Virus record (IMG/VR): IMGVR_UViG_3300045256_000294
Location: 1-64,000 of that record
Reading direction: 5' to 3' (one strand)
DNA length: 64,000 nucleotides
Source of the DNA: a virus
The notes under the pieces: model-generated
Seen by the model: the letters and a program-made list of their open reading frames with translations, nothing else
Database searches by the model: none
Told to the model about the DNA's origin: nothing
Translations under genes and position numbers: made by a program
In this document: one piece after another, positions 4,840 to 64,000 of the stretch
Layout of the letters: each line of letters begins with the position of its first letter
Numbering within the stretch: position 1 is the stretch's first letter

Positions 4840-4843
4840 AACG

Positions 4844-5744: not shown

Positions 5745-5745
5745 C

Positions 5746-6339: not shown

Positions 6340-6365
6340 ATAGTCCCCTCCACTGTATTTTTGGC

Positions 6366-6644: not shown

Positions 6645-6678
6645 CGGCTACATTACTCAACTGCAAAGCGGTGCCACA

Positions 6679-10477: not shown

Positions 10478-10501
10478 GTGCCGTTCCTCCCTACACCCGC
10501 A

Positions 10502-11785: not shown

Positions 11786-11787
11786 GT

Positions 11788-12333: not shown

Positions 12334-12384
12334 TTTAGCTCCCCCACAGTTATAGTAGATTTGGACGTGAGGAGCTGTCCGAAT

Positions 12385-12424
12385 AAGACTGGCCCGCCAC
12401 TCATTCGGGTGGCGGGCCAGTCTT
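12385..12424. terminator. Strong bidirectional terminator
   Basis: A perfect 16-bp inverted repeat (AAGACTGGCCCGCCAC and complement) with an 8-base loop. It lies after the gene at 12484-12885 and before the one ending at 11788, so it ends one transcript in the virion run. Confidence 0.8.
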
Positions 12425-12483
12425 GAAAGCCCTTCGAAGTGAGCATGCTCCCCACGAGGGGGGAGCAGAGGCCCGAAGGGGAA

Positions 12484-12885
12484 TTACGGCTGGTCCGCGG
12501 TGAGGTCGCGGGCGTCGTCGTGCAGGTCGCCGCCCAGCCCCACGATGGTGTTCTTGATGAACCGGTCTTGACCGATCTGGAACGCGAAGTCCACGTCCGG
12601 CAGTTGGGTCTGGGCGGTCGCGAAGGACACCTGCTTGTTGAGGCCGATGACGATCGGGAAGCCGCGGGTGGCGTTGTGCCGGGCCTCGCCCATGTACGGG
12701 CTGAAGTCGGCGGTCGTGGTGTCGCGGGACACGACACCAACGCGGATCTCATGGCCGGGGATGCTCATCACCAGCGGACGCAGCCGCTTGATGAGAGCCG
12801 CCACGCTATCGAACAACAGCGGCTGACGCTGAGCCCGGATCGTGCGGTAGATCTTGATGTCGGTGTTGGCCGGTTGAGCAGACAT
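12484..12885 (-). CDS. Abundant-type structural protein, family not recognised
   Basis: A 133-residue protein isolated between a strong terminator and a 118-base leader that contains a small hairpin (CCGCC...GGCGG at 12911-12930) and an A/T-rich element (ATATCTATAGA near 12935). Having its own promoter and terminator is typical for a highly expressed virion protein such as a tail tube or decoration protein. The sequence (TDIKIYRTIRAQRQPLLFDS; FPIVIGLNKQVSFATAQTQL) is mixed strand and helix without enzyme motifs. A tail tube role is possible from size and location near the sheath, but I cannot show it. Confidence 0.55.
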   Translation of the reverse strand: MSAQPANTDIKIYRTIRAQRQPLLFDSVAALIKRLRPLVMSIPGHEIRVGVVSRDTTTADFSPYMGEARHNATRGFPIVIGLNKQVSFATAQTQLPDVDFAFQIGQDRFIKNTIVGLGGDLHDDARDLTADQP

Positions 12886-13003
12886 TGCATGTCTCCTGTG
12901 TCGGGTGCCTCCGCCTATTTCAATCGGCGGTCTATAGATATGTTACCCATCAGGCAAAACTCTACTGGTCTTATTTCCATGAGTAACGCTTGAGTGTACC
13001 GAC

Positions 13004-14410
<1,407 letters not shown>

Positions 14411-14439
14411 GTTCTCCTCTAGCGTGTAAGTATACCCAG

Positions 14440-15006
14440 ATGCCCTACGTACCGGACAAAGATAGTCGTATGAAGCTATCCACCATCGCTGAAGCCGGTC
14501 TAAAGAGCAAGACCGCTATCCGTGACACCGCGGAGGCGATCGGCAACCTCATCGACTTCGTGTATAAGAAGGGTGCCCCTGAGCACAAGTCAGCCCTAGA
14601 CAACTTCCTGAGCAACCCAGACCCCAAAGGGTGGGAACAAACAAAATGGATAGTTGATGCTGCCATACAGATGGCAACCAAAGATCCAGACGCTCGCGGC
14701 AACCTCAAAGTCTGGGGACAACTCAAAACGATGACCTCTCCGGTGGTGGCCGCCGCCGTCTACGACATCGACCCACGCCAAGCCAGGGGCACACCACTCC
14801 AGGGCCTCGTCTTCGGGAAAGGAATCCGAGACAAGTACAAACTAGCCCTCGGCCCGCAAGGGTACGTCGGAACAATGGCTAACGTTGGCGAAATCGGTAC
14901 CAACAAGCTCCGTGATATGCTGAAAACCATATCCAAGAGCGGGAACGCCATCGCCAAGGCCGCTGAGAAGGATATACCCATCGTCCGCCCTGTGCGGGAA
15001 TTCTAA
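14440..15006 (+). CDS. Hypothetical plus-strand protein
   Basis: A 188-residue, mostly helical protein with high lysine and alanine content ([20 protein letters not shown]; later [20 protein letters not shown]). It begins at ATG 14440, divergent from the gmd remnant, and its stop overlaps the start of the next gene (TAATG). No catalytic motif is recognised. A motif TGCCCTACGTAC (14441-14452) overlaps its start codon and recurs at other divergent promoters in the window. Function unknown. Confidence 0.6.
14441..14452. promoter_or_regulatory. Recurrent TACCCTACGTAC-like motif, copy 1
   Basis: TGCCCTACGTAC lies across the start of the plus-strand gene and about 30 bases upstream of gmd on the other strand. 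Three other near-identical copies lie at gene starts (18527, 38884, 56312). Confidence 0.35.
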
Positions 15007-15383
15007 TGCGACTACGACAAATCATAGAAAGTGTGACAATCACACCGAGCCAGGGCGACGGTTTCAAGATTACGACCCCGTTCGGCTACATCGAATTCCG
15101 GCCCCGTCCCGAAGACGACACCAACGAGATCTGGTGGGTGGAGAGCCATCGGAAAGGGCACGGCTCAGAACTGGTTGACCTGATGCAGAAGTACTCCCCA
15201 GCGAGTAATATAGCTTGGGGAGCTACCAGTGCGGCAGGTGAAAGGCTTCGACAGAAATGGCACGCCGCCCACCCGGAGGTCAGCGGCGGCGAGGGCAGGT
15301 CTTATCCACACGAAGGGCAGTTCGATCCGTTCCAACACGATGAAGAAGAGGACGAAGACGACTGGATGGATGAAGAGATCTAG
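15006..15383 (+). CDS. Putative GNAT-like acetyltransferase domain protein
   Basis: A 125-residue protein. The run IWWVESHRKGHGSELVDLMQ contains the R-x-x-G-x-G type motif of the GNAT acetyl-CoA binding loop followed by a helix, and a second strand-helix (NIAWGATSAAGERLRQKW) follows as in GNAT domains. The strongly acidic tail (about residues 108-125) is unusual. It is shorter than standalone acetyltransferases (about 150), so it may be a partial fold. It is coupled to the preceding gene by an overlapping start and converges on pyrC with overlapping stop codons (shared CTAG). Confidence 0.5.
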   Translation: MRLRQIIESVTITPSQGDGFKITTPFGYIEFRPRPEDDTNEIWWVESHRKGHGSELVDLMQKYSPASNIAWGATSAAGERLRQKWHAAHPEVSGGEGRSYPHEGQFDPFQHDEEEDEDDWMDEEI

Positions 15384-16705
15384 AAGCCCTTCATATACTG
15401 GCCATCCACCACCTTCTCACCCTTGTACCACACCGTAGTCACCATCCCCGGCAAATTGCGGAGGTCAAACGGGCTCCACTGGCACTTGGTATACAGCGGA
15501 CGCCCCTCTATCGCCGTCTTAGACAGATCGAGAACGGTGATACTAGCCTCGTAACCGGGCACGATTCGACCGATCTTCCGGTCCGGCCAGAAACGGTTAA
15601 CCCACTCGCCGGGCCGCTTGCAGGCCATATTGAACAGAGTGGTGACCGGCACACCCTGAGCCAGAAGCCATGCCACGAACGGCCCGTAGGTGTCGAGCAT
15701 TGGAACCCCGCTGGTTCCCTTAAGCTTCTCTTCCTTGGTGTGCGGAGCGTGATCCGCGGCAAGGTAGTCGAACTTCCCCTCCTTGACGGCTTGTAGCAGA
15801 GCTTCCCGGTCCTTACGGGGGCGGATCGGCGGGTCTATCTGCAACCACCGACGATTCTCGTCAGTGAGCATGTCAGTGTCGAAGTACAGATGGTGAGGGG
15901 TGACCTCGCACTCGACGTCCACTCCATCCTTCTTGTAACCCATGATCGTCTCGATACCGATGCCGGTGGAGACGTGGCAGATCTTACCACGAAGGCCCAA
16001 TTCCTGGATGAGTTCGCAGGTGGTGTCGATGCAGATGAACTCAGCTTCCGGCGGGCGGCGGGTTTCGTGGGTTGGCTGTTTGGTCATCACCCCCAGCAGT
16101 ACCGGGTCTTCGCAGTGAAAGCTAACACTGCGACCAGTGTACCGTTTGAGAGCCTGCCGGAGCTTATGATGGCTGTCAAAGTTGAGGTCACCTGAGTAAT
16201 TGGTGCTGGGTCCAATGAACGCCTTGTACGGCGTGTCGGTCTGCCGGATTTTCTCCAGGTCCGCGGGCTTCATACCACCGTCGAACGGCTCGGAATCCTG
16301 ATTCACTGCCGCATAGAGCAGCACATCGATAGGACAGCGACTCTCGGCGATCCACCGCTTCTGGCGGTAGAGGTTGGCGTTGAAGGGTGCGATGGGGTTG
16401 TTGGGCATGTCGGCCACACAGACGACACCGCCGGATAGGGCAGCTTGTCCCGCCGTCTTGTAGTCTTCTTTGTGGGTGTCACTGCCGCTGGCGTCCTCGC
16501 GGCAGTGAGTGTGAATGTCGATAAAGCCGGGGAAGATCAGGCAATCGTTCCCGAAAGTCTCCGGTTTCCAGATCGCCAGTACATCCTCGACGATCTGCTG
16601 GTCGGTCAGCGGTTCTGCCTGTGTGATGATCCCGTTCTCGATGGTGATGATCCGCTTCTTGACACCATCGGCTTCGACCACATTACCATAAATCCGTTGT
16701 GACAT
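15380..16705 (-). CDS. pyrC: Dihydroorotase
   Basis: Catalyses ring closure of carbamoyl aspartate to dihydroorotate in pyrimidine synthesis. The 441-residue protein has the full metal-site set of the amidohydrolase family: FPGFIDIHTHCRED with HxH plus Asp, YKAFIGPST with the bridging lysine, SFHCEDP, CHVSTG and the catalytic Asp in AADHAPHTKEEK. Length fits class I (long) dihydroorotases. ATG 16705 is chosen because the upstream gene's stop overlaps it (TGATG). Other amidohydrolases (hydantoinase, allantoinase) look similar, but the motif spacing favours dihydroorotase. An orotate phosphoribosyltransferase gene lies at 26804-27364, so the phage carries two steps of the same pathway. Confidence 0.85.
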   Translation of the reverse strand: MSQRIYGNVVEADGVKKRIITIENGIITQAEPLTDQQIVEDVLAIWKPETFGNDCLIFPGFIDIHTHCREDASGSDTHKEDYKTAGQAALSGGVVCVADMPNNPIAPFNANLYRQKRWIAESRCPIDVLLYAAVNQDSEPFDGGMKPADLEKIRQTDTPYKAFIGPSTNYSGDLNFDSHHKLRQALKRYTGRSVSFHCEDPVLLGVMTKQPTHETRRPPEAEFICIDTTCELIQELGLRGKICHVSTGIGIETIMGYKKDGVDVECEVTPHHLYFDTDMLTDENRRWLQIDPPIRPRKDREALLQAVKEGKFDYLAADHAPHTKEEKLKGTSGVPMLDTYGPFVAWLLAQGVPVTTLFNMACKRPGEWVNRFWPDRKIGRIVPGYEASITVLDLSKTAIEGRPLYTKCQWSPFDLRNLPGMVTTVWYKGEKVVDGQYMKGF

Positions 16706-17454
16706 CACTCTGTCCTCAGTGTGGGTGGGAGTCTGTCGGGAGGGATCGAGGGCAGACGAGCAAAAACGATTTGAGCGAATTTCAAGCAATCCTCAATCGT
16801 AGCCACCCACGGCATCAACTTCTTCTGATTCAGTAGTTGTTCCCAAGTCTTCACGACAGCCAGCATGTTAGCCCCACCCGGCTCCTTCTGCCGCCGGCTC
16901 AATACAAGCTCATGAAGATGTTGGATCGTGGGATTAAAGCCAGCCAAAGCGATTTGGACCTCGGCGGGAGACGGCTTTAGTTCAGCCAGCACGACAGCCC
17001 GGCACGCCTCGGCAAACACTTTGATGGCTACCGGGTCATAGTCTACCACTGGTTGTGGAGTCTTAGTCAGGCCCAAGACATGGATCAGATTCCTATAGAA
17101 CTTGTAGTATGACTCCGGCTCTTCCTGAGCCTGGATGTCCTCAACATCATACACCGCCTTAAACCAATCCAGCACACTAAGCATGTCGTCATAATGCTCC
17201 GTGATTATAGGAGTGGTCATAAGCAAGCATGCCGGGTCTTCATCCGGCAGTGGAGCGAAGTGGTACACATCAGCGACCACGACCCCCACTTGGCCGTACT
17301 TCGGCACCTGTAGTAGTACCCGGTCGCCCTTGTGCGGTGAGACTGAATAATTGAGTAAAGCAGTGAAGCTGCAGGCCGGACCGGATGGTCCGGCCTGCAA
17401 TACCATTCGAGTTGGTAGGTTCACGCCTTGGTAGGCTCCGGAGCCTTCTTGCAT
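16705..17454 (-). CDS. Hypothetical protein upstream of dihydroorotase
   Basis: A 249-residue soluble protein with a strand-rich N-terminus (SPHKGDRVLLQVPKYGQVGV) and helical C-terminus (VKTWEQLLNQKKLMPWVATI). Not recognised. A perfect 12-bp hairpin at 17371-17398 lies inside its first 30 codons, so either the true start is lower than 17454 or the hairpin acts on translation. ATG 17454 is kept because no ATG follows the hairpin for some distance. The gene is coupled to pyrC (TGATG overlap). Confidence 0.55.
   Translation of the reverse strand: MQEGSGAYQGVNLPTRMVLQAGPSGPACSFTALLNYSVSPHKGDRVLLQVPKYGQVGVVVADVYHFAPLPDEDPACLLMTTPIITEHYDDMLSVLDWFKAVYDVEDIQAQEEPESYYKFYRNLIHVLGLTKTPQPVVDYDPVAIKVFAEACRAVVLAELKPSPAEVQIALAGFNPTIQHLHELVLSRRQKEPGGANMLAVVKTWEQLLNQKKLMPWVATIEDCLKFAQIVFARLPSIPPDRLPPTLRTE
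17371..17398. promoter_or_regulatory. Perfect hairpin inside the 5' part of a coding frame
   Basis: GCAGGCCGGACC and its complement flank the 4-base loop GGAT. The architecture matches the intergenic terminators of this genome, but it sits inside the frame of the gene at 16705-17454. It may be a translational control element or a sign that the start is misplaced. Confidence 0.55.
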
Positions 17455-28327: not shown

Positions 28328-28544
28328 AGAGACTATCCCTATTTAAGTTGTGTGGGACAGAAGACCCATCAAGGTTTATGTACCGACGCAAAATCATATA
28401 CCCAAGACCGGCATCGACTAAGATCGCGTTGGAGTGGATGCTCTTGACGCGGGCGGCGATGCCCCGCTCGTGGCAGAAGTGGCCGACGGCGTAGGTGGCG
28501 GGCTCAGTGAAAAGGATCACATCACCTATCGCCAGACAGTTCAT
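28170..28544 (-). CDS. Small hypothetical protein
   Basis: The first about 70 residues (MNCLAIGDVILFTEPATYAV; then AILVDAGLGYMILRRYINLD) read as a small strand-rich domain. The rest, which overlaps the glycosyltransferase start by 158 bases, looks like out-of-frame sequence, so the real protein may once have ended near 28330. The ATG overlaps the stop of the intein-bearing glycosyltransferase (ATGA). Function unknown. Confidence 0.45.
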   Translation of the reverse strand: MNCLAIGDVILFTEPATYAVGHFCHERGIAARVKSIHSNAILVDAGLGYMILRRYINLDGSSVPHNLNRDSLYENYVWPTPRRCFRVHHRRDDQRPAGQGTCGNSLGRPRAFVAWFCSRSILRS

Positions 28545-31500
28545 TTCAGAGCCTCAGCCAGTTCTTGGGAATATCCGATCCGTCGTAGTTGTTCACGCTG
28601 GCGGTCCACCCGATCAGCTATCTGCAGCCGTTTGAGTGATGCTTCCAGAGCCTTGTTCGCATCGTGATGGTCATGCCAACCACTCACCCGCGAGTGCCAC
28701 AAGTGAAGGAAGTCAAACATGCGGTCCTCCTTCCACTTAGTAGTTCCACTCAAGCGGGCGTAGAAGTCACAATCCTCGCAATTATGCACAAATAGACCGT
28801 TCACCACATAAGAATGGTCGTCGGCCACTTCGAAATTGTACACAGGCCCCGAGTATGATCGACTCTTAATGTCGTATACCGTCCCGAACTTGGACCGGCC
28901 CATCGAACTAGACCCAATCAGCGACGGCTTAGTGTAGACCGTGCTGATAAGATGCTCGAATTCGCGGTTCACGCACAGATCGAAGGTCCAGTCAGAACTA
29001 CCAGGGAACGACCCACCGGATCGCTTACCAAAGGAATGAGCGATCCCCAATCGCCGCATGATTCCGGAATAGGCCATCGCCAGATTAATACTAGAACTGT
29101 GGTAAACATGACGGCGTTCTGACCCGTTGCCGTGGTCGGCGTCCCCGTCACATCCGCCGCCGAGCAGGAGCGATAGTTGTCGATCGGTGAGCCCGTTAAT
29201 GAACGACTGTGACACTACCTTACTGGTAGCCTGGTGACGGCCCGCCACCGCTTTAATAGTCTTCGCCAGCAGCGAATTAAATACCCTGACTTCGCGGCAG
29301 CCATTCTTAACATAGTGGTACGCTACATTAATGTCTGGGTGCAATTCTTGCACCAGCCTCTCGACATGCTTCGCCAGGAACTCCTCACTCTGGCTAAGAT
29401 AGTAGCATACGGTCCGCAACTTGTCCGGCGTCTGCAACACCCCATCGGCAAGATACAACCCTAGCAAGTAACAAAATTGATCCATTTTGGCATAGACGTC
29501 GAACGAATTCTTGCTCAAATCAAGATTTGCTAAATCGCTCAAATCGTAGCTCGGAACCAACTCCGGCAGGAAATCGGTCGAAGCGATCACATCACCATTA
29601 TTAAGGGTATCGGCTCGTCGCCACATAAACTCATCAGGCCCGGTCTGCACCAGGAACGGGTGATTTGGGGTGACTCCCTTGATTGGCAGACGACCAGGAA
29701 CATAGACATCCAGAACGGTCCCATCATAGTGGCGACTACGCAACTCGATCGGTTGGAACTCGCACTCGTGGGTATAGAGGCGGTCAGAGGCCGTTACCGT
29801 CTCAATAGGCTTGTACCCCGCCTGAGTTAGAACGTAGTTGCCGGGGAGAAAACACCCATAACCCCAATAGTCCTCATTGAAGCCGCCGCACTTCCAGAAG
29901 CCCTTCTTGGTCACAGCCAAACTACCACCCTCGTAGTAGCCCACCACCCGTTCGCACTTGACCTCGGCGTCGATGATCCCAGAAGCGTTGATCTGCTTCA
30001 TCGACTCCTGAGTGGTGTACAGCACGGTACTACCGATATGACACGACTCATAATCACGAAGGATATCGGCGACGGCCTGGGTGTAGTGACCCTGGGCCAG
30101 CATGTCGGCATCATGGAGAATCACCATATCGCAAGGAGCCTTAGCCACACCGACATTGAACGCCCGGCTCTTGTTGAATAGCGGGCTCTCAGGGGCCGTA
30201 ACCAAATAGTGGTTGACCGGGGCATACTGGCTTATGTCGATTTGGGACTGCGAATCCTGCTCGACCATAATAAGATGGATCACCGGGAACCGCTGTGCCC
30301 GAAGGTTATTCATCACCGTGGCAATCGAGGCGGTCCGCTCGAAATCGCGGAACGGCACCACGTAGGCGATTTCCGGCACCCGGCTCTTCTCACTCGGACC
30401 GACATATACCGGCCGACGATGGGCGAACTTGGTGCGAGCCTCCTGGAGCAGACGGGAGCGTTCTTGCACCGCGGACGGCTCGGCGTACAGCTTGAAATAG
30501 TTGTCCGAGCCAGACACGTCGAAAAAGCCGGCGTCCTGCAGACCAAGCTCCCACACCCGCTGTGACCAATCCACGTGTTCCATGCCGTACAGACCATACG
30601 ACTCGTCAAAATAACCGCATGTCTTGAGGAACTGGTTGTCGAAGGCCAGGATTGCCCCATGGGGCTTGTCTTCAACCCGCAGCAAGGACACACCATTCTT
30701 CTGAACCACGGTGCCAAGGTCGGCACCGTATACCCCATACTGGCGGTACATGAAGTGGTGCATCCCGGTCTTGACCATCACGTCCGGGTAGAAGTATTCC
30801 CAGCCGTGATTCAAGATCTCCACATCGTCATTGAGCAGCAGCCCATACTGGAACCGCGACAAGCATCTCAGCAGACGGTTACTGTTGCAGGCAATGCCGC
30901 TGCGTTCCTGGTTCCTGAGGATGACGAAGTTTGGGTTGTTCGACAGTTCATTCAGGTAGGTGACGGTGGCCGGGTCGGTGCTGCCATCATCGGAAATGAA
31001 GACGGTTGTCCGCCGTAGGTCGGTATTCCGGATGATCGAGTCCACCAACCGGCGAAGGCTACCAGCCCGATTGAACGACATGATGCCTACGGCGATGCCG
31101 TTACTGACCGGGTAGTTGTTCCGATCCAAGTTGTAGCGTAGGAGTTCGTTGGGATCGCGACTGAGCGATTTGCCGACGATCTGCTTTTGTGGTCGCATAT
31201 GAGTAGACGGCACCGGCTTGCGATTGCCAATCTTGGCGGCCATCGCAATTTTGCGGGCACGTGCCACATCTGCCCTTTTGGGCTTGACTTGAGCGGGGGC
31301 AGCAGCTTGGATCTGTGACTGGGGGGTCTGGCGGCGAGCGGTTTCTGTGACCTTGACCTTGGCCTGCACTTTGATAGGAGCAGCGGCCTGGGCCTGCTGG
31401 GATTGGGCGAGACGCAAGAATCCGCGAGCACGGTACTTGTCGAAGAATTCCGACAGAATGACCCGTTGGTGTGGTTTCACCTTGAGTGATTTACCATCTG

Positions 31501-31549
31501 GCCCCAGCAGGTGTACGGCGTAGCTGTGGGGGTTGACGTATTCTGGCAA
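28541..31549 (-). CDS. Two-domain family 2 glycosyltransferase carrying an intein
   Basis: A 1002-residue precursor. Residues 1-45 are a small module also seen in two short putative virion proteins (VKPHQRVILSEFFDKYRARG). Residues about 60-135 are Ala/Lys/Gln-rich linker. GT domain 1 begins at GIAVGIMSFNRAGSLRRLVD, with FISDDGSTDP and LLLNDDVEIL. GT domain 2 begins at IAYVVPFRDFERTASIATVM, with VILHDADMLAQG. An intein fills residues 566-923, and the last 79 residues (CEDCDFYARL onward) complete domain 2. The mature protein would be 644 residues. The intein sits in the acceptor-site loop 'GYG/CEDCDF', one of the most conserved parts of the enzyme, so activity depends on splicing. Confidence 0.85.
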   Translation of the reverse strand: MPEYVNPHSYAVHLLGPDGKSLKVKPHQRVILSEFFDKYRARGFLRLAQSQQAQAAAPIKVQAKVKVTETARRQTPQSQIQAAAPAQVKPKRADVARARKIAMAAKIGNRKPVPSTHMRPQKQIVGKSLSRDPNELLRYNLDRNNYPVSNGIAVGIMSFNRAGSLRRLVDSIIRNTDLRRTTVFISDDGSTDPATVTYLNELSNNPNFVILRNQERSGIACNSNRLLRCLSRFQYGLLLNDDVEILNHGWEYFYPDVMVKTGMHHFMYRQYGVYGADLGTVVQKNGVSLLRVEDKPHGAILAFDNQFLKTCGYFDESYGLYGMEHVDWSQRVWELGLQDAGFFDVSGSDNYFKLYAEPSAVQERSRLLQEARTKFAHRRPVYVGPSEKSRVPEIAYVVPFRDFERTASIATVMNNLRAQRFPVIHLIMVEQDSQSQIDISQYAPVNHYLVTAPESPLFNKSRAFNVGVAKAPCDMVILHDADMLAQGHYTQAVADILRDYESCHIGSTVLYTTQESMKQINASGIIDAEVKCERVVGYYEGGSLAVTKKGFWKCGGFNEDYWGYGCFLPGNYVLTQAGYKPIETVTASDRLYTHECEFQPIELRSRHYDGTVLDVYVPGRLPIKGVTPNHPFLVQTGPDEFMWRRADTLNNGDVIASTDFLPELVPSYDLSDLANLDLSKNSFDVYAKMDQFCYLLGLYLADGVLQTPDKLRTVCYYLSQSEEFLAKHVERLVQELHPDINVAYHYVKNGCREVRVFNSLLAKTIKAVAGRHQATSKVVSQSFINGLTDRQLSLLLGGGCDGDADHGNGSERRHVYHSSSINLAMAYSGIMRRLGIAHSFGKRSGGSFPGSSDWTFDLCVNREFEHLISTVYTKPSLIGSSSMGRSKFGTVYDIKSRSYSGPVYNFEVADDHSYVVNGLFVHNCEDCDFYARLSGTTKWKEDRMFDFLHLWHSRVSGWHDHHDANKALEASLKRLQIADRVDRQREQLRRIGYSQELAEALK
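28781..29854 (-). mobile_element. LAGLIDADG-containing intein in the glycosyltransferase
   Basis: A 358-residue intein. Block A is CFLPGNYVLTQAGYKPIETV, block B is GVTPNHPFLVQTG, two LAGLIDADG-like helices lie at CYLLGLYLADGVL and SLLLGGGCDGDA, block F is PVYNFEVADDHSYVVNG, and it ends FVHN followed by extein Cys. All splicing residues (Cys1, TxxH-type His, penultimate His, terminal Asn, +1 Cys) are present. The second endonuclease helix is less regular, but acidic residues remain in both. Confidence 0.9.
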
Positions 31550-46407: not shown

Positions 46408-46734
46408 TTAACCTTCTGTCGGATCATCCGGGCAGAATTTCTGCCGCTGTGCCTTGGCCCTCTCGTAGGACGCCTTGGCGTTCGCTTCCACCAACACGAG
46501 AGCGTCACACAGCAGCAGGAATTCATCCTCAGTGTAGTACAACGTCTGGGTGCTGATCTGGGATCGCCTCTCCATAGCCCCGCCCATCGACGGCGGTCCC
46601 AGCGAATAGTCAATGGAGTACATCCAGCCGTTCTGACCGAGATGTACACCACTGATTTTCACAGCCTCAAGGGTGCCGATCGCCGCCGACTCCCTGAGGT
46701 AGACAACATCACCAGGGTTGTACTTGTTACTCAT
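46408..46734 (-). CDS. Small hypothetical protein between recA and helicase genes
   Basis: A 108-residue protein with an SH3-like start (KYNPGDVVYLRESAAIGTLE; then GQNGWMYSIDYSLG) and a helical C-terminus (EFLLLCDALVLVEANAKAS). Overlaps the recA stop by 8 bases. Similar small barrels occur in several short genes of this phage. Function unknown. Confidence 0.5.
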   Translation of the reverse strand: MSNKYNPGDVVYLRESAAIGTLEAVKISGVHLGQNGWMYSIDYSLGPPSMGGAMERRSQISTQTLYYTEDEFLLLCDALVLVEANAKASYERAKAQRQKFCPDDPTEG

Positions 46735-48937
46735 CGGAGTCCTTCATGGCGTCGAGGATGTCGTCGTCGAGAGGGTCGCCCTCGTCATCCCCGCTGACCG
46801 TGGTCACCAGATGCTTCGTCCGGTCACGCAGGTTATCGTAGATTTTCCCCATCAGAGCATCCCGGATCGCGTCGTTCTTCCGCAGGAACTCCGCCGCCGC
46901 ATCATAGCCATTGACCTTCTGCCCCTCGAAGATGAAGTAGCTGGACGACTTCTCGATCAGCTTCATGTCCCCGGCCACCTTGAGCAACGACTCGACCGAA
47001 TCGACGCCGAAGCAGGGGTAACCGAACCGAATACCATACTCCGCGGTCGTGAACGGCGGGGCACACTTGTTCTTCTTGACCGAGAGGTTCGTCGAGAAGC
47101 CGATCGTCTCTTTCCCATCCTTCACCGCCGAGCCCTTGTTGATCTGGACACGGAGGCTGGCGTTGAACTTGAGGGCCAGACCGCCGGGGGTGGTGTCGGG
47201 AGAATTGTGGACGATGATGCCATTGGTGGAGCCCCCAGCGGAGTAACACTTTGTGTCACGCACGCTGATATCATACTTCCCCCTGTCCCTCATCTGCCGA
47301 CCACTGGCGCGGCGAATGCTGATGACCGTCGCCACCGCATTGCGCCACGCGGCGTCGCGTTCCAACGAGAATTCGACATAATCGCGGGAACCGAACGGTA
47401 GCTTACGTCGCATGCACGGCGGCACGAATTCAGCTATGTTCTCAGCGATGCGGGTGGATACATCTTTATCGAAAATAATTGAACCGCCCTCACTGACATA
47501 GTGATACAGACCAAGATCATCGAGAGCGCGACTAATCTCTTCGAGTTTATCAAAATTGCCGGCGAACCGCCTGACTGAAAGATGGTAACGACCACACTCG
47601 TAAACGGCGTCGTCCATAACCCACACGGCGAATCCTAACCACGAAAAATGGTTAAGCAGAAGCATCGGGTCCCGATGCGGATATTCGCCCTTCATCTGGA
47701 GTAGCTCAGGGTAACAGTCAGACTCGTACCGTTCTCCGGACGGACATGGACGTTTGGAGAATTCCATATAACTCTGCAGCTTGCCTACTTTCCATAGCGT
47801 ATAATCTGGATCAGTATTGCCTCTAAGTATCAGAGATGCCCCCAATCGCTTGGGGTTGTGAGATAGGTGAGAATCACCCGACAACACACCAGTGAGGAAC
47901 AGCCCTAGAGTACCATTCGGGCGATTACCATTCATGACGAATGCTGCTTGCCGGGTGACAACGACATCCCCGCCGGCCAACTCCTTGGCCTCACGCCACC
48001 CACTACTAGTCAGTATCTTGTGTTCCGGTGTTACCGTGACCTGCATGCGACCATTCTTGGTGTCAGGTCCCTTGACCTCAATCAACAGAAAATCGTCAGG
48101 GGTCTGCACATCACCATTGTAATGCCAGTCAGTGATCGGCCGGGCGACAAAAGTCTCCGCCTCTTCGTCGTAGCTCCAGACGTCCCCCCTGACTCTCTCC
48201 TGTACAACCTTGGCGATGGGTAGACTGCGGCCATCAACAAAGTTGATGAGAGTGTCGCCGTGCAGGCACCCAAACATGACACCGATCTTCTGCCTGATCT
48301 GGTTAATAAAGATCACGGTAGTCTTGGACTTCGAAGCCTTCCCGGCGATCATCCGCAAGCCCTTCGACATGAGCCGAGCCTGGGCACCGATCGCGTTGTC
48401 GCCGATTTCCCCTTCGAGTTCCTGCTTCGGGATAAGGTTGGCCACAGAGTCCACCACAACCAGATCGACCAGCCCCGACTCGCAAATCTTGTCCACGATA
48501 TCGAAGGCTTCCTCACCGGAGTTGGGCTGGCTGAACAGGAGGGCGTCCACATCCACGCCGCACTTTGCTGCCCATTCGGGGTCGAAGGCGTGCTCGGCGT
48601 CCACGAACGCACAGACCCCCTTGCGGTTCTTGTGCGGGAAGAAGTGCTTCTGGCAAGCGGCGATGAACTGGATGCAGGTGGTGGTCTTGCCTGAGGACTC
48701 CAATCCATATATCTCGACGATACGACCTTCTGGTAGTCCTCCCACCCCGAAGGCTACGTCGATGGTGGGTACTAGAGTGGGGATGGCGTAGGTCCTGACG
48801 ATGTTCTCGCGGCCCTGCATGATGGTGCCGTCACCGTGGGCCTTGTTGAGGGACTTAATCAAAGCCCCCAGGTCCTTTGGCTTCTCGGCTTTTTTCTTCT
48901 TGTCGTCCTTCTCGTCGCTTTCCTTGGCCTTGGCCAT
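46727..48937 (-). CDS. recA: RecA/UvsX recombinase precursor with intein
   Basis: DNA strand-exchange protein. ATG 48937 is used because GGGGAG lies 8 bases upstream; total 736 residues. N-extein (1-223) contains Walker A EIYGLESSGKTTTCIQ, Walker B LVDLVVVDSVANLIPK, and VIFINQIRQKIGVMFG. The intein covers residues 224-578. The C-extein (579-736) begins SPDTTPGGLALKFNASLRVQ, the RecA DNA-binding and C-terminal region, and ends acidic (EGDPLDDDILDAMKDSDE). The mature RecA would be 381 residues. The insertion lies in loop L2 right after the conserved F-I-N-Q segment, a known intein site class in RecA proteins. Confidence 0.95.
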   Translation of the reverse strand: MAKAKESDEKDDKKKKAEKPKDLGALIKSLNKAHGDGTIMQGRENIVRTYAIPTLVPTIDVAFGVGGLPEGRIVEIYGLESSGKTTTCIQFIAACQKHFFPHKNRKGVCAFVDAEHAFDPEWAAKCGVDVDALLFSQPNSGEEAFDIVDKICESGLVDLVVVDSVANLIPKQELEGEIGDNAIGAQARLMSKGLRMIAGKASKSKTTVIFINQIRQKIGVMFGCLHGDTLINFVDGRSLPIAKVVQERVRGDVWSYDEEAETFVARPITDWHYNGDVQTPDDFLLIEVKGPDTKNGRMQVTVTPEHKILTSSGWREAKELAGGDVVVTRQAAFVMNGNRPNGTLGLFLTGVLSGDSHLSHNPKRLGASLILRGNTDPDYTLWKVGKLQSYMEFSKRPCPSGERYESDCYPELLQMKGEYPHRDPMLLLNHFSWLGFAVWVMDDAVYECGRYHLSVRRFAGNFDKLEEISRALDDLGLYHYVSEGGSIIFDKDVSTRIAENIAEFVPPCMRRKLPFGSRDYVEFSLERDAAWRNAVATVISIRRASGRQMRDRGKYDISVRDTKCYSAGGSTNGIIVHNSPDTTPGGLALKFNASLRVQINKGSAVKDGKETIGFSTNLSVKKNKCAPPFTTAEYGIRFGYPCFGVDSVESLLKVAGDMKLIEKSSSYFIFEGQKVNGYDAAAEFLRKNDAIRDALMGKIYDNLRDRTKHLVTTVSGDDEGDPLDDDILDAMKDSDE
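47204..48268 (-). mobile_element. RecA intein
   Basis: A 355-residue intein: block A CLHGDTLINFVDGRSLPIAK, block B VTVTPEHKILTSSGW, endonuclease-like helices GLFLTGVLSGDSHLSHN and LGFAVWVMDDAVYECG, and end DTKCYSAGGSTNGIIVHN before extein Ser. All splicing residues are present. Confidence 0.93.
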
Positions 48938-49208
48938 CGGTGAATCTCCCCAGAGGTGCGAGTATGGCGTCAATGTCGTATGCTGCCACTTTCAAAACAT
49001 CCATAGCAGGAATGCGGATAGTGGCACCATGCTTGACGACAAGCAGGTCGTGTCCATCTTCGACGGGAATGATCGACGCCACACTCCACACCCCCTTGGG
49101 AGATACCGATGCCTCAGGGGGTGCTGAGAGGTACTTGACATTTCGAGTGGTACGTAGTCGCACTTGGTCGAACTGACGAAACTCGATCGATTCCTGCTGT
49201 TCAAACAT
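48855..49208 (-). CDS. Hypothetical protein overlapping the recA start
   Basis: A 117-residue protein with strands in the first 80 residues (EFRQFDQVRLRTTRNVKYLS; HDLLVVKHGATIRIPAMDV) and a charged Arg/Glu/Gly-rich tail that overlaps the recA start by 83 bases, so the natural stop may be earlier. SH3-like appearance as in other short genes nearby. Not recognised. Confidence 0.5.
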   Translation of the reverse strand: MFEQQESIEFRQFDQVRLRTTRNVKYLSAPPEASVSPKGVWSVASIIPVEDGHDLLVVKHGATIRIPAMDVLKVAAYDIDAILAPLGRFTDGQGQGKRREGRQEEKSREAKGPGGFD

Positions 49209-56324: not shown

Positions 56325-57533
56325 TCACCGTTCCCTCAGAGCCATGATGATCTCGCCGCGAGCAAGGGCGAAAGTACCCCGTTTGTCGTCGTAGTCCACA
56401 AACATCTGAACCGCCTTCCCCCTGGAAATGATATTCAGATCTTGATTCTGTAGTTCGTTGAACCACACGAAAACCAGGGCCGTCTGGATACCGTCGGTAA
56501 TGAAGACCTTAAGGTACGGCTTGTTGGTCTTGGTCATGCCGTCAACGACGTCCTGAATGATCCCCTCAAGCTTGACCTCACCGCCCGTCTTGGCGTTCTC
56601 CTTCGCCTGGGCGATCGTGCAGCCCTCGCACTTATACACGTCCAGCGGCGAATCGATCCAGTAGCCCAGGAACTGCTTCTGGAACAATAGCCGATCTTCC
56701 ATGGTGAAGTCATCAGGGAAGAGGGCCATCACCTTATCGCGGGTATCCTTTGGCTTCGGCTGCCAATTCTTCAACTTGTCCGGGATCTTATTCCGCTTGG
56801 GGAACGTCCGTTTCCACTCCATGATCTGACGCTGGCGTTCCTCGTTGATAGTCTTGGGGTTCCAGCCCTCAAGTTCCAGGAGCTTAGCCCGCACCGCCCG
56901 GCGGAGTTCCGTCATGTTCTTACCGGACTTACAATATTTGTACTGGTAGTATTGCCATAGAGCCTGAGCGTTCTCGTGGCCCGGCAGGTGGCGGAAGGCC
57001 CCCAACTTGATGAACCGCTCCAACACCGTCTTCGACTGACGACCAGGGGCCGACTCCACGAACTCATCGATATCCCGATACTTGCCCTTCCCTTCGAAGG
57101 CGAGAGCCGCCTTCTTGCCCAATCCCTTGATACCGATGAGCCCCTGATTCACCGTGTCTCCAGTCACGGTGAAGTTGCTGGTCATATGCTCAATGTTCAC
57201 CACCGAGAAACGGACGTTGCGAGGCTTCTCCTTACCGCCTTTGTACTTCCCACAGTAAGTGATTTCAGTTGGGTTCCACTCTTCAGCACGAGCCACACTC
57301 ATGTACCGCACCAACTTGTCCGGGTGGCAGTCGGACATAACCGCCGCCCAGAACTCCGGTGCGAAGTGAGCCTTAAGCCACAGACATTTAAGGGCCACGA
57401 GGCAGTAGGAGACGGCGTGGGAATTACGATGTACTGCCGCAGAAGAATCAGTTATGTAATTGTGTTCCGAAGACGCCATTTCTGGCGAATACGTTTGCCG
57501 CATCCCTAAGGATCGATACGATACGATCTTCAT
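56325..57533 (-). CDS. dnaE: DnaE polymerase, C-terminal part, beginning with a split-intein C-half
   Basis: Third piece of the polymerase. ATG 57533 (GGAG 5 bases upstream) starts the intein C-half: MKIVSYRSLGMRQTYSPEMA then SSEHNYITDSSAAVHRN (37 residues). The extein follows as SHAVSYCLVALKCLWLKAHF, the segment that in normal DnaE comes directly after 'FNK'. Further on are a helix-hairpin-helix (GLIGIKGLGKKAALAFEGKG) and an OB-type fold (EVKLEGIIQDVVDGMTKTNK). The protein is 402 residues, 365 after splicing. It needs the half at 59106-61229 to work. The start codon overlaps the endonuclease stop (ATGA). Confidence 0.9.
   Translation of the reverse strand: MKIVSYRSLGMRQTYSPEMASSEHNYITDSSAAVHRNSHAVSYCLVALKCLWLKAHFAPEFWAAVMSDCHPDKLVRYMSVARAEEWNPTEITYCGKYKGGKEKPRNVRFSVVNIEHMTSNFTVTGDTVNQGLIGIKGLGKKAALAFEGKGKYRDIDEFVESAPGRQSKTVLERFIKLGAFRHLPGHENAQALWQYYQYKYCKSGKNMTELRRAVRAKLLELEGWNPKTINEERQRQIMEWKRTFPKRNKIPDKLKNWQPKPKDTRDKVMALFPDDFTMEDRLLFQKQFLGYWIDSPLDVYKCEGCTIAQAKENAKTGGEVKLEGIIQDVVDGMTKTNKPYLKVFITDGIQTALVFVWFNELQNQDLNIISRGKAVQMFVDYDDKRGTFALARGEIIMALRER
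57423..57533 (-). mobile_element. Split intein C-half (DnaE)
   Basis: Thirty-seven codons, block F (TYSPEMASSEHNYIT) and end AAVHRN followed by Ser+1. The residue before the final Asn is Arg rather than the usual His. Confidence 0.85.
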
Positions 57534-59188
57534 AACAACTCCAATTTGTAATGTCCAGCATCCCACAGCCGTCTATACCCATTGGCGAACATATTCTGGG
57601 CTTCGGTCAATTCGGCCTTAAAATCAGGCAAGAGACCAGGTAACTTATGCTTCTGAAACATCTGTCGCGGATACACTTTCTGGCCTTTACAATAACTATA
57701 CCCAGGAGGGGTCACACCACGCTTGACGAACCCAGCTGCAATATAAGCGGCAGCAGTTGGTGAATAACGGCGATCCACATACGTGAATACGCTGCCAAGG
57801 CCCGACCGTTTCATCAACCGGCTAAGGCCGCCCACAACCATTGTGTCCAATAAATTACAGAACCGCATTAACTCCCACCTCCCATGTAAATTGTTGAACG
57901 AAGCCGCAGCAACAATACAACCGCCTTTTTCCAGTGCCAAATAGCGACTAGATCGCCTATGCCCGTGTAAGTGATTGTGGTCAAAAAACATTTTCATCTC
58001 CGCTTCTGTGGGTTCGGTCACAACACAGTCCCTGGCGTAGACCCTCGATTTCACCAAACCGAGCTTGGAACGCAACATCGACTTTACGATTTGTGGCTTA
58101 TCACGCCATTCTGATTCATAAATCTGAATCAACGAAAAGCCTTTATCCAAAGCAGCATCCAACTTGTTATAGTGGCGGTATGACTCTTCCCTAGTTTCTG
58201 GCCTGTTATATGAGTGCCAATATAAACCATGGTACTCTATCCCAACGTTACCAGCAACAATATCAATCTCTTGGCCATCAAGGATATTGCGGTCATTACG
58301 AACACACTGCGTCAATGATCCAACAAATTCCGCTAACTCCATTTCGCCTTTAGAACTCGTTTTAGCCGAATCACAAAACCGGCACCCAGCCCCTTTGAGA
58401 TGATTCTGAGCTAGTTGTACAACATGTCCATGTATATCACACTTATAAACGATATGACTCAGCGATGACTCATACGTACTATCCGAATAATCGTATCTGC
58501 CACCATGGACAACTGCACAGCGCTCGAAGAATTCAGTCGCTGTTAATTTAGATCGCTCGGCCGCGCAGGTTGGACAGCCATGTCCTCGCACATGATTGGA
58601 CGGTAGCTGGACGAATGGGCCATGGTGCGGACACACGACCGTAAATGCCACATCGGTGCTTACGTAAACTGTTTTCGAATAATCATAAAAACCATCATGT
58701 ACTAATGAACAACGAGCTAAGAATTCAGCAGCATTATTCCGCCGCGCCGCATTAACTCTAGCTACATATTCTGGATCGGCGAATTTTTTCTTTATAGCCG
58801 CAGAAATCTTTTCAGCGAACTCCTTACTACTACTCAACCGCCGAGCACAGTCCCGCATTTTGGTGCGATAGGCATCATCCAGCCACAGCCGCTTTGACCT
58901 TTCAGACGACCCAGCCACAATCTTATCAATAGCAGATTTTGATGCCAACGAAGCAGCCGCGACGACTGACGGGAGGGCACGATAGCAACTTGGGCAATGG
59001 TAATCAACTACGTGTTTAGATTGATTGTTAACAGTCCGCACAAGTTCTGCAAATACAACAGTCCTCTGCAATTTACAATTAGCACAAATGGCCGTTACCC
59101 TTTCCTTACTTTTCGGACGAGTTGCCTTGGCCACCAGTCTGAGCCTGGGCGACATCCAATCCTTTGTCGATAATTTCTCTAACTTCAT
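57530..59188 (-). CDS. Vsr-like homing endonuclease with DUF723-type zinc repeats, between the two halves of a split intein
   Basis: A 552-residue protein (ATG 59188, GGGGAG upstream). Residues about 10-45 have a zinc pair (ERVTAICANCKLQRTVVFAE ... YHCPSCY). Residues about 160-290 hold two repeats like 'YDYSKTVYVSTDVAFTVVCP' and 'YDYSDSTYESSLSHIVYKCD', each followed by HGHV/HGPFVQL and a C-x-x-C. Residues about 295-420 are the Vsr-like nuclease core (CVRNDRNILDGQEIDIVAGN; VGIEYHGLYWHSYNRPETRE; GFSLIQIYESEWRDKPQIVK). The DNA is A/T-rich. This kind of gene is known between halves of split inteins (fractured genes). It overlaps both flanking genes. Confidence 0.85.
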   Translation of the reverse strand: MKLEKLSTKDWMSPRLRLVAKATRPKSKERVTAICANCKLQRTVVFAELVRTVNNQSKHVVDYHCPSCYRALPSVVAAASLASKSAIDKIVAGSSERSKRLWLDDAYRTKMRDCARRLSSSKEFAEKISAAIKKKFADPEYVARVNAARRNNAAEFLARCSLVHDGFYDYSKTVYVSTDVAFTVVCPHHGPFVQLPSNHVRGHGCPTCAAERSKLTATEFFERCAVVHGGRYDYSDSTYESSLSHIVYKCDIHGHVVQLAQNHLKGAGCRFCDSAKTSSKGEMELAEFVGSLTQCVRNDRNILDGQEIDIVAGNVGIEYHGLYWHSYNRPETREESYRHYNKLDAALDKGFSLIQIYESEWRDKPQIVKSMLRSKLGLVKSRVYARDCVVTEPTEAEMKMFFDHNHLHGHRRSSRYLALEKGGCIVAAASFNNLHGRWELMRFCNLLDTMVVGGLSRLMKRSGLGSVFTYVDRRYSPTAAAYIAAGFVKRGVTPPGYSYCKGQKVYPRQMFQKHKLPGLLPDFKAELTEAQNMFANGYRRLWDAGHYKLELL

Positions 59189-61229
59189 GATACTCCCCAT
59201 CAGTGCAAAGGAATTTGTGTTGCATTGTGACTCTCTCTGTCTGGCCATTATCGAAAACTATTTCAAACACCTCCTGCACACCAGTATCGTGAATAGCCAC
59301 GCACTTATCAGTAACAACTATGCCATTGCTGTACGCTTTAAGGGTCGGTAAATCAACTTCATTGGCCCACTCGCCAATAGTGGCCGACCGACCGGTGGTG
59401 GTGTCGGTTAGCACAGTATCTTTGTCAAGGCACTTATTGAAGGCGTATCTGCCGAACGTCTCCATCTTCGGCCACCACTCGTCAGCCTCGGCCTGACCGA
59501 GCATTTTGGCGGCACCGCGCAGCCACTTCTCCTTAATTGGCTTGAGCTTGTGGGTCAACTTCTTGGCAACGGCCTTTCGAGCCTCCTGAGCCTCAGGAGC
59601 AGTGAACCCGGCCACCCGCTGCCAGATGGCCTGCAATTGTTCCTGGTAAACGATCACACCATAGGTGTCCTTGAGGACATCCAGGATGACCGGGTGGAGC
59701 CTTTTCTGCCAAGTCTTACGGCCGTCATCGCGGTTTCTCACCGCATCCGGGATCGAGGCCATCGGACCAGGGTGACCCATCGCGTTGAACAGCATCAAGT
59801 CTTCGAAGCAGTACGACTGGTTGGCCAAAATACTCTTAGCCAGATCGGTGTCGAACTGGAACACCCCGTCCGTCTTTTGCTCGTTGGCGAGCCTGAGGGC
59901 ATGGGGGTCGTCCATGTTGATGAAGTGCTTCTCTCCGTTGCCGTCATAGTAGAAACCAGCGTGCCGGAGCCGTGGGTTGTTGTACTCCATCCCCTCCATA
60001 TTCTTACCAAAGGAGATACCGCGGTTCTCCTCAATAAGCTGGCACGCCTTGAAAATGTACTCCAAAGTCTTTAGGCCAAGGAGGTCCCATTTAATGTAAC
60101 CGAACTTGGATAGCTGGGTGTTACGGCCCTCAGTCCACATGCTCGTCCAGAAGCCCTTGCTTCCGGTCTTGGCCATGGGAACGTTGCCGTACAGCGGCCG
60201 GTTCGTGATGATGATGGCCCCGGCGTGCATCCCCATGTTGCGGATGCGGCCGATCAGGTTGAGAGCTACGTCGAAGATAGGTGGGTACACCCGCTCTTCG
60301 AGTTCCGGATTCTCCAACCGCTGCTTGTCCCATTCAGCCTGCAGTTCGACCCGCCGCTTCTCGCAGCTATCGTAGAAACGACGAAGAGGCTCGTGTTCCT
60401 CGAACAACTTGGCGAATGTCGGCCCATCGGTGTCGGTGGATTCTACGTTACGATCTGCCCAGCACTTCGGGCATTTGAGTTCACCCTTCTTGCTGCCGTA
60501 CAGATGGCCGCACTCCTTACCGGAAGGCAGAATCGCTTTGCATGGGGCCAGCCCGCCTTCCTTGAGATCGTCAACGTCGTCGGGCAGTAGCTTGGTGATC
60601 TGTTCAGCTTTCTCCAACTTGGCCTCTTCCATGTCCACGGTGACGCCAAGGTCATCCACGCTCTTGGTGCCCTTCCGCTTTACCCCAGCTTTGGTCTGCT
60701 GGGTGCCGCGGCCCATGTAGCCAAGGGCGACGGCTGAGTCGATTAAGGCACTCTTGAACTTATAGGTCTGCCACGTACCGACCGAACAGACTGAACCATA
60801 GCCATCATTATGGTTACTGCCGTAAGTCTTGATCGCGAATTCCTTAAGAGGGTCGCGAGCGGCCGGTAGGCAGTCAATGTCGATGTCAGGGCTGTCCGGG
60901 TCCTTGATGAGATCGTGTGGAATGAAGCCGTTAGCGTCCTTGAACTCCAAAACTTTCGCTGCCCGGACGGTGTTGAGCATCGGGGTCTTGCGAGCCACGA
61001 TGGGGTCATCATCCACCATCCCAAGAACCCACGGCAGGACTAGGTTATTGGGGTTAGACAGGAACTTCTTACCTTCAGAGTAACGGTTGACCCAGATTAA
61101 TTCAGCACCCTGCTTCTCGACCTCGGCGATCTCGAACTTGAGCCGTTCTTCGTACGGACCATCTAACCCTCGCTGGGCCAGGACAGCCAGAGCTTTAGAT
61201 ACGACTTGTTGCCAAGAAATATCAGTCAT
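59106..61229 (-). CDS. dnaE: DnaE polymerase, catalytic middle part, ending with a split-intein N-half
   Basis: Second piece of the DnaE-type replicative polymerase (707 residues). The catalytic acidic pair is in DSPDIDIDCLPAARDPLKEF, the third Asp in FGYIKWDLLGLKTLEYIFKA, and conserved polymerase segments include SVCSVGTWQTYKFKSALIDS. A zinc ribbon is inserted (APCKAILPSGKECGHLY ... ELKCPKCWADRN). The extein ends METFGRYAFNK, after which Cys600 starts the intein N-half. The first about 115 residues before the PDIDID motif are unlike normal DnaE order. Start ATG 61229. Its partner halves are at 56325 and 63246. Confidence 0.92.
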   Translation of the reverse strand: MTDISWQQVVSKALAVLAQRGLDGPYEERLKFEIAEVEKQGAELIWVNRYSEGKKFLSNPNNLVLPWVLGMVDDDPIVARKTPMLNTVRAAKVLEFKDANGFIPHDLIKDPDSPDIDIDCLPAARDPLKEFAIKTYGSNHNDGYGSVCSVGTWQTYKFKSALIDSAVALGYMGRGTQQTKAGVKRKGTKSVDDLGVTVDMEEAKLEKAEQITKLLPDDVDDLKEGGLAPCKAILPSGKECGHLYGSKKGELKCPKCWADRNVESTDTDGPTFAKLFEEHEPLRRFYDSCEKRRVELQAEWDKQRLENPELEERVYPPIFDVALNLIGRIRNMGMHAGAIIITNRPLYGNVPMAKTGSKGFWTSMWTEGRNTQLSKFGYIKWDLLGLKTLEYIFKACQLIEENRGISFGKNMEGMEYNNPRLRHAGFYYDGNGEKHFINMDDPHALRLANEQKTDGVFQFDTDLAKSILANQSYCFEDLMLFNAMGHPGPMASIPDAVRNRDDGRKTWQKRLHPVILDVLKDTYGVIVYQEQLQAIWQRVAGFTAPEAQEARKAVAKKLTHKLKPIKEKWLRGAAKMLGQAEADEWWPKMETFGRYAFNKCLDKDTVLTDTTTGRSATIGEWANEVDLPTLKAYSNGIVVTDKCVAIHDTGVQEVFEIVFDNGQTERVTMQHKFLCTDGEYHEVREIIDKGLDVAQAQTGGQGNSSEK
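59109..59432 (-). mobile_element. Split intein N-half (DnaE)
   Basis: 108 codons: block A CLDKDTVLTDTTTGRSATIG, block B ERVTMQHKFLCTDGEYHEVR, ending in a Gln/Gly/Ser-rich stretch and a stop. TxxH is present as TMQH. Confidence 0.92.
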
Positions 61230-63245: not shown

Positions 63246-64000
63246 TCAGTTTACTGGATCAGGCATACTCAGGTTCAGCATATACCCTCCACGCGATGGC
63301 GACAGGAAGCGGTCGAAAGACAGCCCCCACAGCAACGGGTCGAGGGTGTGAATACCGAGCAGGTAGCAGACCAGTGAACCACCAGCACTCCCACGTGGGC
63401 TAAAAGGCCAGCCCTGCTCGCGGCCGTGCAGCACCAGGGTCCGCGTAATAATGAAGTACGACGAGAAGCCCTTATCGATGAACCGCTTGAGTTCGATCTT
63501 AGCCTGCTCGACGTAAGTCACTTCTTTACCGTCGATGATGAACTTCTCCCGGCACGTATCCAGGCCAAGCTCACGGAGTCGAAGGGCGACCAGCCGCTTC
63601 AACTCCTCATCAGCATTCGGAATGTTCGGGATCTTTGGATCAGGATCGAAATCGAACGGCGTCACCTTGTCCGCTATGACCAATGAGTTATCGCACATCG
63701 TCTCGAATACGCTGTCCGGAATCCCCTTCGAGTAAGGATAATTCTTGAAGCGAGCCCAAAGCTCACCCCGTGTCTTCATATACTGCTCGTCAGAATTGAC
63801 GTGAAACAGGTCCTTGCTGTAAACGTTGGTGTCCTGAGCGATGGCCATCATCACTTTCTGCAACAGGAAGTCCTTCCGCGTCAGGTAATGGCAATTTGAA
63901 CTAGTAACCCCAACCAAGAAGCTGCTATCATCTTCCACTTGAATACACCATACCTCCGAAATATCAGATTCAATCCGACGAAATGGATTCTTAATCCAGA
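63246..64000 (-). CDS. dnaE: DnaE polymerase, N-terminal part (partial at window edge), with intein end
   Basis: First piece of the DnaE polymerase. The frame enters from the right edge and ends at 63246. The part up to 63894 is intein; the extein resumes as CHYLTRKDFLLQKVMMAIAQ, the late PHP-domain segment. Then follow LGLDTCREKFIIDGKEV..., FSSYFIITRTLVLHGREQGW, SPRGSAGGSLVCYLLGI and the palm start LDPLLWGLSFDRFLSPSRGG, all matching DnaE. It stops after LNLSMPDPVN, just where a normal DnaE would read 'SMPDIDIDF'; the catalytic Asp pair is on the next piece (59106-61229). GTG 63938 is not the real start. Confidence 0.9.
   Translation of the reverse strand, partial: WIKNPFRRIESDISEVWCIQVEDDSSFLVGVTSSNCHYLTRKDFLLQKVMMAIAQDTNVYSKDLFHVNSDEQYMKTRGELWARFKNYPYSKGIPDSVFETMCDNSLVIADKVTPFDFDPDPKIPNIPNADEELKRLVALRLRELGLDTCREKFIIDGKEVTYVEQAKIELKRFIDKGFSSYFIITRTLVLHGREQGWPFSPRGSAGGSLVCYLLGIHTLDPLLWGLSFDRFLSPSRGGYMLNLSMPDPVN
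63894..64000 (-). mobile_element. C-terminal end of an intein in the DnaE PHP domain
   Basis: Reading from the edge: SDISEVWCIQVEDDSSFLVG then VTSSN followed by extein Cys. This fits intein block F and the terminal Asn/+1 Cys; the penultimate residue is Ser rather than His. The rest lies beyond the window. Confidence 0.8.

Follow-up and report, generated by a model that had tools for sequence, protein, structure and literature searches.

Architecture of the locus

IMG/VR virus record IMGVR_UViG_3300045256_000294 (136,952 bases) encodes a contractile-tail sheath and a DnaB-type helicase. We analyzed its first 64 kb (the window), in which the gene for this phage's replicative DNA polymerase, DnaE, is fractured and a predicted homing endonuclease gene lies between the halves of a split intein. 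Every gene of the locus is on the minus strand. The polymerase is encoded by three genes: an N-gene (67064-63246), a middle gene (61229-59106), and a C gene (57533-56325). The features of the fracture are as follows (a slash in a sequence marks an intein boundary, except within brackets, where it separates alternative residues).

59433-61229, minus strand: DnaE middle part, 599 residues, with PDIDID and IKWDLLGL, the fingers region, and the end ...ETFGRYAFNK (PF17657, E 8e-31; PF07733; PRK05673, E 1.5e-56)
59106-59432, minus strand: split intein N-half, 108 residues, with Cys1 and block B VTMQHKF (weak TIGR01445 match; phmmer matches to solved DnaE inteins)
59106-59188, minus strand: dual-coded stretch, with intein HEVREIIDKGLDVAQA... 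in frame 0 and endonuclease MKLEKLSTKDWMSPRLRL... in frame +1 (overlap and frame kept in five lineages)
57530-59188, minus strand: predicted Vsr-like homing endonuclease gene, 552 residues (phrog_559, E 7e-80; phrog_3339, E 4e-74; fold tests; named relatives)
58055-58387, minus strand: nuclease domain, around residues 268-378, GQEIDIV...VGIEYHGLYWHS (AlphaFold model, Foldseek)
57533-58054, minus strand: Mom/GNAT-like domain, around residues 379-552 (model pLDDT 94; Foldseek; PF25680 in relatives)
57423-57533, minus strand: split intein C-half, 37 residues, MKIVSYRSLG...EHNYIT...AVHRN (alignment to cyanobacterial and phage C-halves; PRK07373 match, 12-93)
56325-57422, minus strand: DnaE C-terminal part, 365 residues, from SHAVSYC (PF14579, E 2e-9; phrog_405, 791-1044; the parts abut uninterrupted in relatives)

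The middle gene encodes 707 residues, namely 599 residues of DnaE ending in ...GRYAFNK and the N-intein. The alignment of this DnaE part to polc columns reaches column 750. The C gene starts at ATG 57533, and DnaE resumes at SHAVSYC directly after the C-half. An ATGA overlap joins this start to the stop of the endonuclease gene, which ends at 57530. The likeliest endonuclease start, ATG 59188 behind GGGGAG, gives 552 residues.

The original prediction, made from the sequence alone, placed an N-half at the end of the 59106-61229 product. These coordinates are right, with DnaE first and then an intein that matches solved DnaE inteins. It also read the 37 residues before SHAVSYC as a C-half and SHAVSYC as the continuation of YAFNK, which is confirmed by relatives that read YAFNK/SH without interruption. 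Its 552-residue, Vsr-like endonuclease agrees with the fold matches given below; this gene does not follow the N-intein gene, as had been stated, but overlaps it by 83 nt.

Recurrence and empty sites

Relatives were collected by IMG/VR searches with the polymerase and the intein as queries. The same three-gene layout is present in four other lineages (L006/L007, L011/L012/L087, L174, and L177), so it is due neither to chance nor to sequencing error. The polymerase parts abut at the same codon in L008, L009, L010, L013, L014, L016, L017, L023, L024, and L026, and the junction is unbroken in L015. Because relatives encode YAFNK/SH uninterrupted, the junction is codon-exact. Among named phage genomes the DnaE C half found no match.

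The middle and C genes lie in one frame. This is the only observation in favor of an artefact, whether of assembly or of a frameshift, in what would be an ordinary contiguous intein. However, the endonuclease is in the +1 frame relative to the polymerase gene, and stops separate the polymerase genes in their own frame. The artefact is refuted by the recurrence on independent contigs of five lineages, and we regard its probability as negligible. The fractured dnaE with a split intein that was originally predicted is instead supported by the codon-exact continuation and by this recurrence.

Filled and empty alleles are found in sister phages. The polymerase tree pairs L007 (filled) with L023 (empty) as sisters at UFBoot 98, and L011/L012 (filled) with L015 (empty) at UFBoot 100. 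In AU tests on five taxa, the cassette (0.006) and the endonuclease (0.003) both rejected the best polymerase topology. These trees support transfer of the endonuclease.

Some relatives show further changes near the site. L015, with its empty YAFN/SH site, carries an insert of approximately 1.2 kb (11389-12635) near residue 530 of the DnaE middle gene, in one 1397-residue frame; this is probably another cis intein. In L023, the DnaE C half is separated by 5.7 kb of inserted DNA (11092-16783) from the gene that adjoins it in relatives. L174 has an inversion of three genes (9108-10947) that lie downstream of the DnaE C half, with the C half itself in place.

The split intein

The N-half matches solved cyanobacterial DnaE inteins over approximately 100 residues (7qil, E 3.4e-11; Npu 4lx3, E 1.8e-9; phmmer). 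The residues expected for splicing are present in the window's intein: the nucleophile at position 1, TxxH, the block F His, the C-terminal Asn, and the +1 nucleophile. Its subgroup retains Cys1, TxxH, HNY, the terminal Asn, and Ser+1. In the remaining site copies that were read, the conserved residues are C1 or S1, (T/S)xxH, the block F His, the terminal Asn, and S/C+1. Distant copies at the site end in TSN or VSN, resembling the cyanobacterial ASN. In the five closest copies the N-halves are acidic (-10 to -17) and the C-halves basic (+1 to +5).

We built an intein tree that combines the copies at this site with cyanobacterial DnaE inteins and with five further inteins from the same genome. 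Every copy at YAFNK/SH falls into a single clade (UFBoot 100). The cyanobacterial inteins group with two other inteins (UFBoot 85, in a small sample) and are not sister to the phage copies. A shared origin with the cyanobacterial split DnaE intein had been considered on the basis of the PDB similarity and the four-residue offset of the sites; the tree does not support it.

The N-gene and a break without an intein

The PHP domain of DnaE and the start of the palm are encoded by the separate N-gene, which specifies 1272 residues. It carries two cis inteins in the PHP region (IPG/C..HN/CEIYF and LAND/C..SSN/CHYL). At least one of them has a LAGLIDADG-like part. The window contains the following parts of this gene.

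63894-64000, minus strand: C-terminal end of the second cis intein, ...GVTSSN/CHYL (Hint and LAGLIDADG matches)
63246-63893, minus strand: end of the N-gene, which runs to 67064 of the record (PF07733 positions 12-99 here, 100-260 in the middle gene)

The break between the N-gene and the middle gene thus divides PF07733 between positions 99 and 100, immediately ahead of the catalytic PDIDID. The beginning of the middle gene weakly duplicates the N-gene tail (hhalign, E 2e-5) and looks like a degenerate copy of it. No intein that would repair this break is visible there. The break is kept in close relatives with readable ends, and its presence there makes it older than the intein fracture.

A polymerase already broken without an intein, in close relatives too, favors a reading in which the intein halves are never ligated. 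DnaE-middle and DnaE-C would then act as two non-covalently associated subunits, with intein halves that are inert or serve only for docking. The split polymerase 43A/43B of phage 25 and the split NrdA of Aeh1 do function as separate peptides (PMC2988022). However, the splicing residues are conserved across approximately 14 diverged copies, and docking alone would not need them. We consider the lack of ligation very unlikely. Trans-splicing, which the conserved residues point to, is likely required for polymerase function, as originally inferred. Even after ligation, the first third of DnaE would remain a polypeptide of its own, with its two cis inteins.

Dual coding of the endonuclease start

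In all five lineages the endonuclease start overlaps the end of the N-intein, by 50-101 nt and always in the +1 frame. Where codons of the intein frame specify the same amino acid, the DNA differs in 26% inside the overlap versus 57% outside. The corresponding values for the endonuclease frame are 38% and 54%. The endonuclease motif KLS(T/S)KDWxS is encoded in the DNA of the intein motif EII(D/E)xGL. A free-standing paralogue of the endonuclease (around 86432-87973 of the record) does not have the dual-coded extension. These patterns indicate that the endonuclease start is dual-coded with the intein. Programmed frameshifting into one chain, with a +1 shift into the endonuclease and a return at its end, was also considered, and the frames permit it. 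Reinitiation at the overlapping starts is simpler, because the N-intein stays in frame until it reaches a stop codon of its own.

The endonuclease

Pfam gave no match to the window's endonuclease alone at E 0.01. Its identification therefore rests on the PHROGs and on folds; the 'HNH' label of the PHROG for this family is a misnomer. The nuclease part was modeled by AlphaFold with a pLDDT of 81.5. Foldseek matched this model to I-Bth0305I (3r3p, E 3e-4) and to Vsr (1cw0, E 3e-3; 1vsr), with probability 1.0. The Vsr profiles of Pfam and NCBIfam match some family members weakly.

A model of residues 269-552 (pLDDT 94) gave phage Mu Mom as the best Foldseek match (8bv8, E 2e-5), followed by GNATs, and the match comes through the C-terminal part, around residues 379-552. 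The Mom family PF25680 matches 8 of 29 endonuclease family members (best E 5.7e-10), with the window's copy unmatched. A direct hhalign comparison with Mu Mom is weak and aligns YVDRRYS..AAY to FADERCG..VVY. On these models, the endonuclease is predicted to join an I-Bth0305I/Vsr-like nuclease domain to a Mom/GNAT-like domain.

Relatives of the endonuclease are common in named phages, often annotated as 'Hef-like homing endonuclease', and most of the family members found do not adjoin an intein. When 43 other family records were scanned with TIGR01445, an N-intein lay directly upstream in L050 only. The host gene there is a split-intein PolB (L050, 6746-12106), with the same Vsr-Mom endonuclease family between the halves. 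The family also occurs in the split-intein PolB of phage MIJ3, and so it pairs with split inteins outside DnaE as well. Just upstream of the L050 PolB, a cytosine DNA methyltransferase-like gene (4495-6717) carries a cis intein. The free-standing paralogue in the record is 42% identical and directly follows a helicase with a LAGLIDADG intein (the two genes together span 83542-87973; L020, 2542-6973).

Fusions of Mom and a restriction endonuclease (REase) in jumbo phages have been interpreted as restriction-modification systems (PMC7824862). By analogy, the Vsr-Mom protein could be a phage restriction-modification device that sits in an intein and is not a homing endonuclease; that most family members lie away from inteins is in keeping with this. 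Against it, the gene is lodged at one dnaE codon in five lineages and in the split-intein PolB of L050 and MIJ3, sister phages have empty alleles, and the endonuclease and polymerase trees conflict. The two roles are moreover compatible with each other. We judge a restriction-modification device in place of a homing endonuclease to be unlikely. The location in an intein argues for homing, with which a second role would be compatible.

Proposed mechanism

We propose that the fractured dnaE is rebuilt by trans-splicing and that a homing endonuclease is lodged in the split intein; we give this reading a probability of roughly 0.9. Three overlapping genes would yield DnaE-middle with the acidic 108-residue N-intein, a free Vsr-type homing endonuclease, and the 37-residue C-intein fused to DnaE-C. 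The intein halves would associate and splice in trans through Cys1, Asn37, and Ser+1. The product would be a 964-residue chain of the middle and C parts with the junction ...YAFNK-SHAVSY.... This chain would pair non-covalently with the PHP-bearing N-protein after the two cis inteins of the latter have spliced. The endonuclease would cut the intein-less dnaE of co-infecting phages near YAFNK/SH, and repair would copy the intein and the endonuclease into the cut gene. The tree conflict and the empty alleles of sister phages support such cutting indirectly. The intein would thus 'pay' for homing by restoring the polymerase.

Several observations weigh against this proposal. The TIGR01445 score of the N-half is 17.9 bits, below the cut-off of 24.5. 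The penultimate residue of the C-half is Arg instead of the canonical His. A point in its favor, that the 136,952-base record contains no second dnaE (an uninterrupted copy elsewhere in the genome had been named at the outset as a refuting finding), is limited because the record may be incomplete. In the five-taxon AU test, the intein halves alone do not reject the polymerase topology (0.32).

The Arg had been called unusual, which holds against the canonical His but not within the window's subgroup, where Lys or Arg before the final Asn is the rule. A catalytic model for a DnaE intein without the penultimate His is available according to the citation of Sun et al. (2005) in PMC8899391. It had also been claimed that the three genes move as one unit. 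This is supported in part, by the cassette and endonuclease trees but not by that of the intein alone; in relatives, the endonuclease has been replaced, decayed, or deleted independently. Movement of the three genes as one unit is compatible with these data.

A series of states at one codon

The copies at this dnaE codon differ in state. L189 has a contiguous mini-intein with Ser1 and the boundary TSN/SHSVAY. In L181 the intein is split, with a LAGLIDADG gene between the halves. The intein is also split in L182, L184, L186, and L188, with an intervening gene of approximately 300-360 residues (NUMOD3 in three of the four); the pattern in these genes is read, from sequence, as EDxHD-like. In L180 a deletion has taken out the endonuclease's nuclease domain along with most of its Mom-like domain, and L183 and L185 have no endonuclease. 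In L185 the DNA leading up to and spanning the start of the C-half still reads ISDGTFKEDLKCKLLKLN. Over 22 residues, this scar shares 68% identity with the C-terminal end of the L184 endonuclease (E 4e-9 in a small search). In L183 a stop lies within the scar. That endonucleases have been lost is shown by the decay and the scars.

In L179 an inversion whose breakpoint lies between the intein halves has turned the C half, together with three genes downstream of it, against the direction of the middle gene. The L179 halves must therefore find each other in trans. L180, the sister of L179 (UFBoot 100), is collinear.

The mini-intein of L189 groups with L181 (UFBoot 100). Given this grouping it may be ancestral or re-fused. 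The series would run from a mobile intein to a separable split gene. The stages would be the mini-intein (L189), split inteins with differing endonucleases (G000, L181, and L184), the deleted core (L180), the scar (L183/L185), and the inversion (L179). That phages keep these stages at one dnaE codon, and that the Mom-like domain is in addition an active DNA-modifying enzyme, is a tentative proposal to which we give somewhat less than even odds. If true, it would provide a natural, testable route to the cyanobacterial dnaE arrangement.

The origin of natural split inteins, including that of cyanobacterial dnaE (a standard protein-ligation tool), has so far mostly been argued from scattered cases. 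Here, related copies in which the endonuclease is present, dying, or deleted with a scar, and in which the halves are rearranged, make it possible to test, one copy at a time, in what order the events occurred and whether trans-splicing persisted. The site yields around a dozen new candidate split inteins, some with Lys or Arg before the final Asn. It also supplies an endonuclease predicted to join a Vsr-like nuclease to a Mom-like domain.

Other genes in the window

Cis inteins are also found in a RecA-like gene (46727-48973; FG/C...VHN/SPDTTPGG) and in a glycosyltransferase gene (28541-31549). An open reading frame at 42140-43504 matches only the final third of the family A DNA polymerase profile (PF00476, 246-379).

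Comparison with known systems

The fractured genes described by Dassa and colleagues in 2009 are reportedly DNA-synthesis enzymes split by inteins, with a free-standing Vsr-related endonuclease between the halves, mainly in phages. The work is said to cover eight enzymes, of which DnaE may be one. The window likewise has a DNA-synthesis enzyme broken in frame by intein halves, with such an endonuclease gene between them. It differs in having DnaE as the host, broken at YAFNK/SH, a dual-coded endonuclease start, and a Mom-like domain.

In Pseudomonas phage MIJ3, PolB is split by an intein with an endonuclease gene, called HNH, between the halves (PMC6892783). This endonuclease is of the same family as the window's (34% identity over 422 residues, E 4e-74). 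The MIJ3 system differs in its host gene (PolB), its Ser1 intein at YGDTD/S, and an overlap of only 8 nt.

The cyanobacterial split DnaE inteins (Ssp, Npu) also interrupt the DnaE alpha subunit, have halves of approximately 100 and 36 residues, and are the nearest solved sequences. Their site is AEY/C...SN/CFNKSHS, whereas the phage site, YAFNK/C...N/SHAVSY, is four residues downstream. They have Cys+1 and no endonuclease, and the phage copies form a clade of their own to which they are not sister.

I-Bth0305I, the EDxHD homing endonucleases, and Vsr share the nuclease domain fold with the window's endonuclease. Unlike I-Bth0305I and Vsr, it has an extra zinc-finger-like N-terminal region and the C-terminal Mom/GNAT-like domain. 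The Hef homing endonuclease of phage U5 cuts nrdB (PMC2988022). Many phage records give the label 'Hef-like' to relatives of the window's endonuclease, and such genes are free-standing, unlike the one described here. The jumbo-phage Mom-REase fusions (PMC7824862) likewise combine a Mom-family domain with a restriction-fold nuclease; the window's Vsr-Mom protein, unlike these, is lodged in a split intein and resembles a homing endonuclease rather than a restriction-modification system. The general kind of arrangement is thus already known, and so is a split PolB with an endonuclease of this family. What the present analysis adds is the set of states found at one codon, the dual coding indicated by the sequences, and the predicted Mom-like domain.

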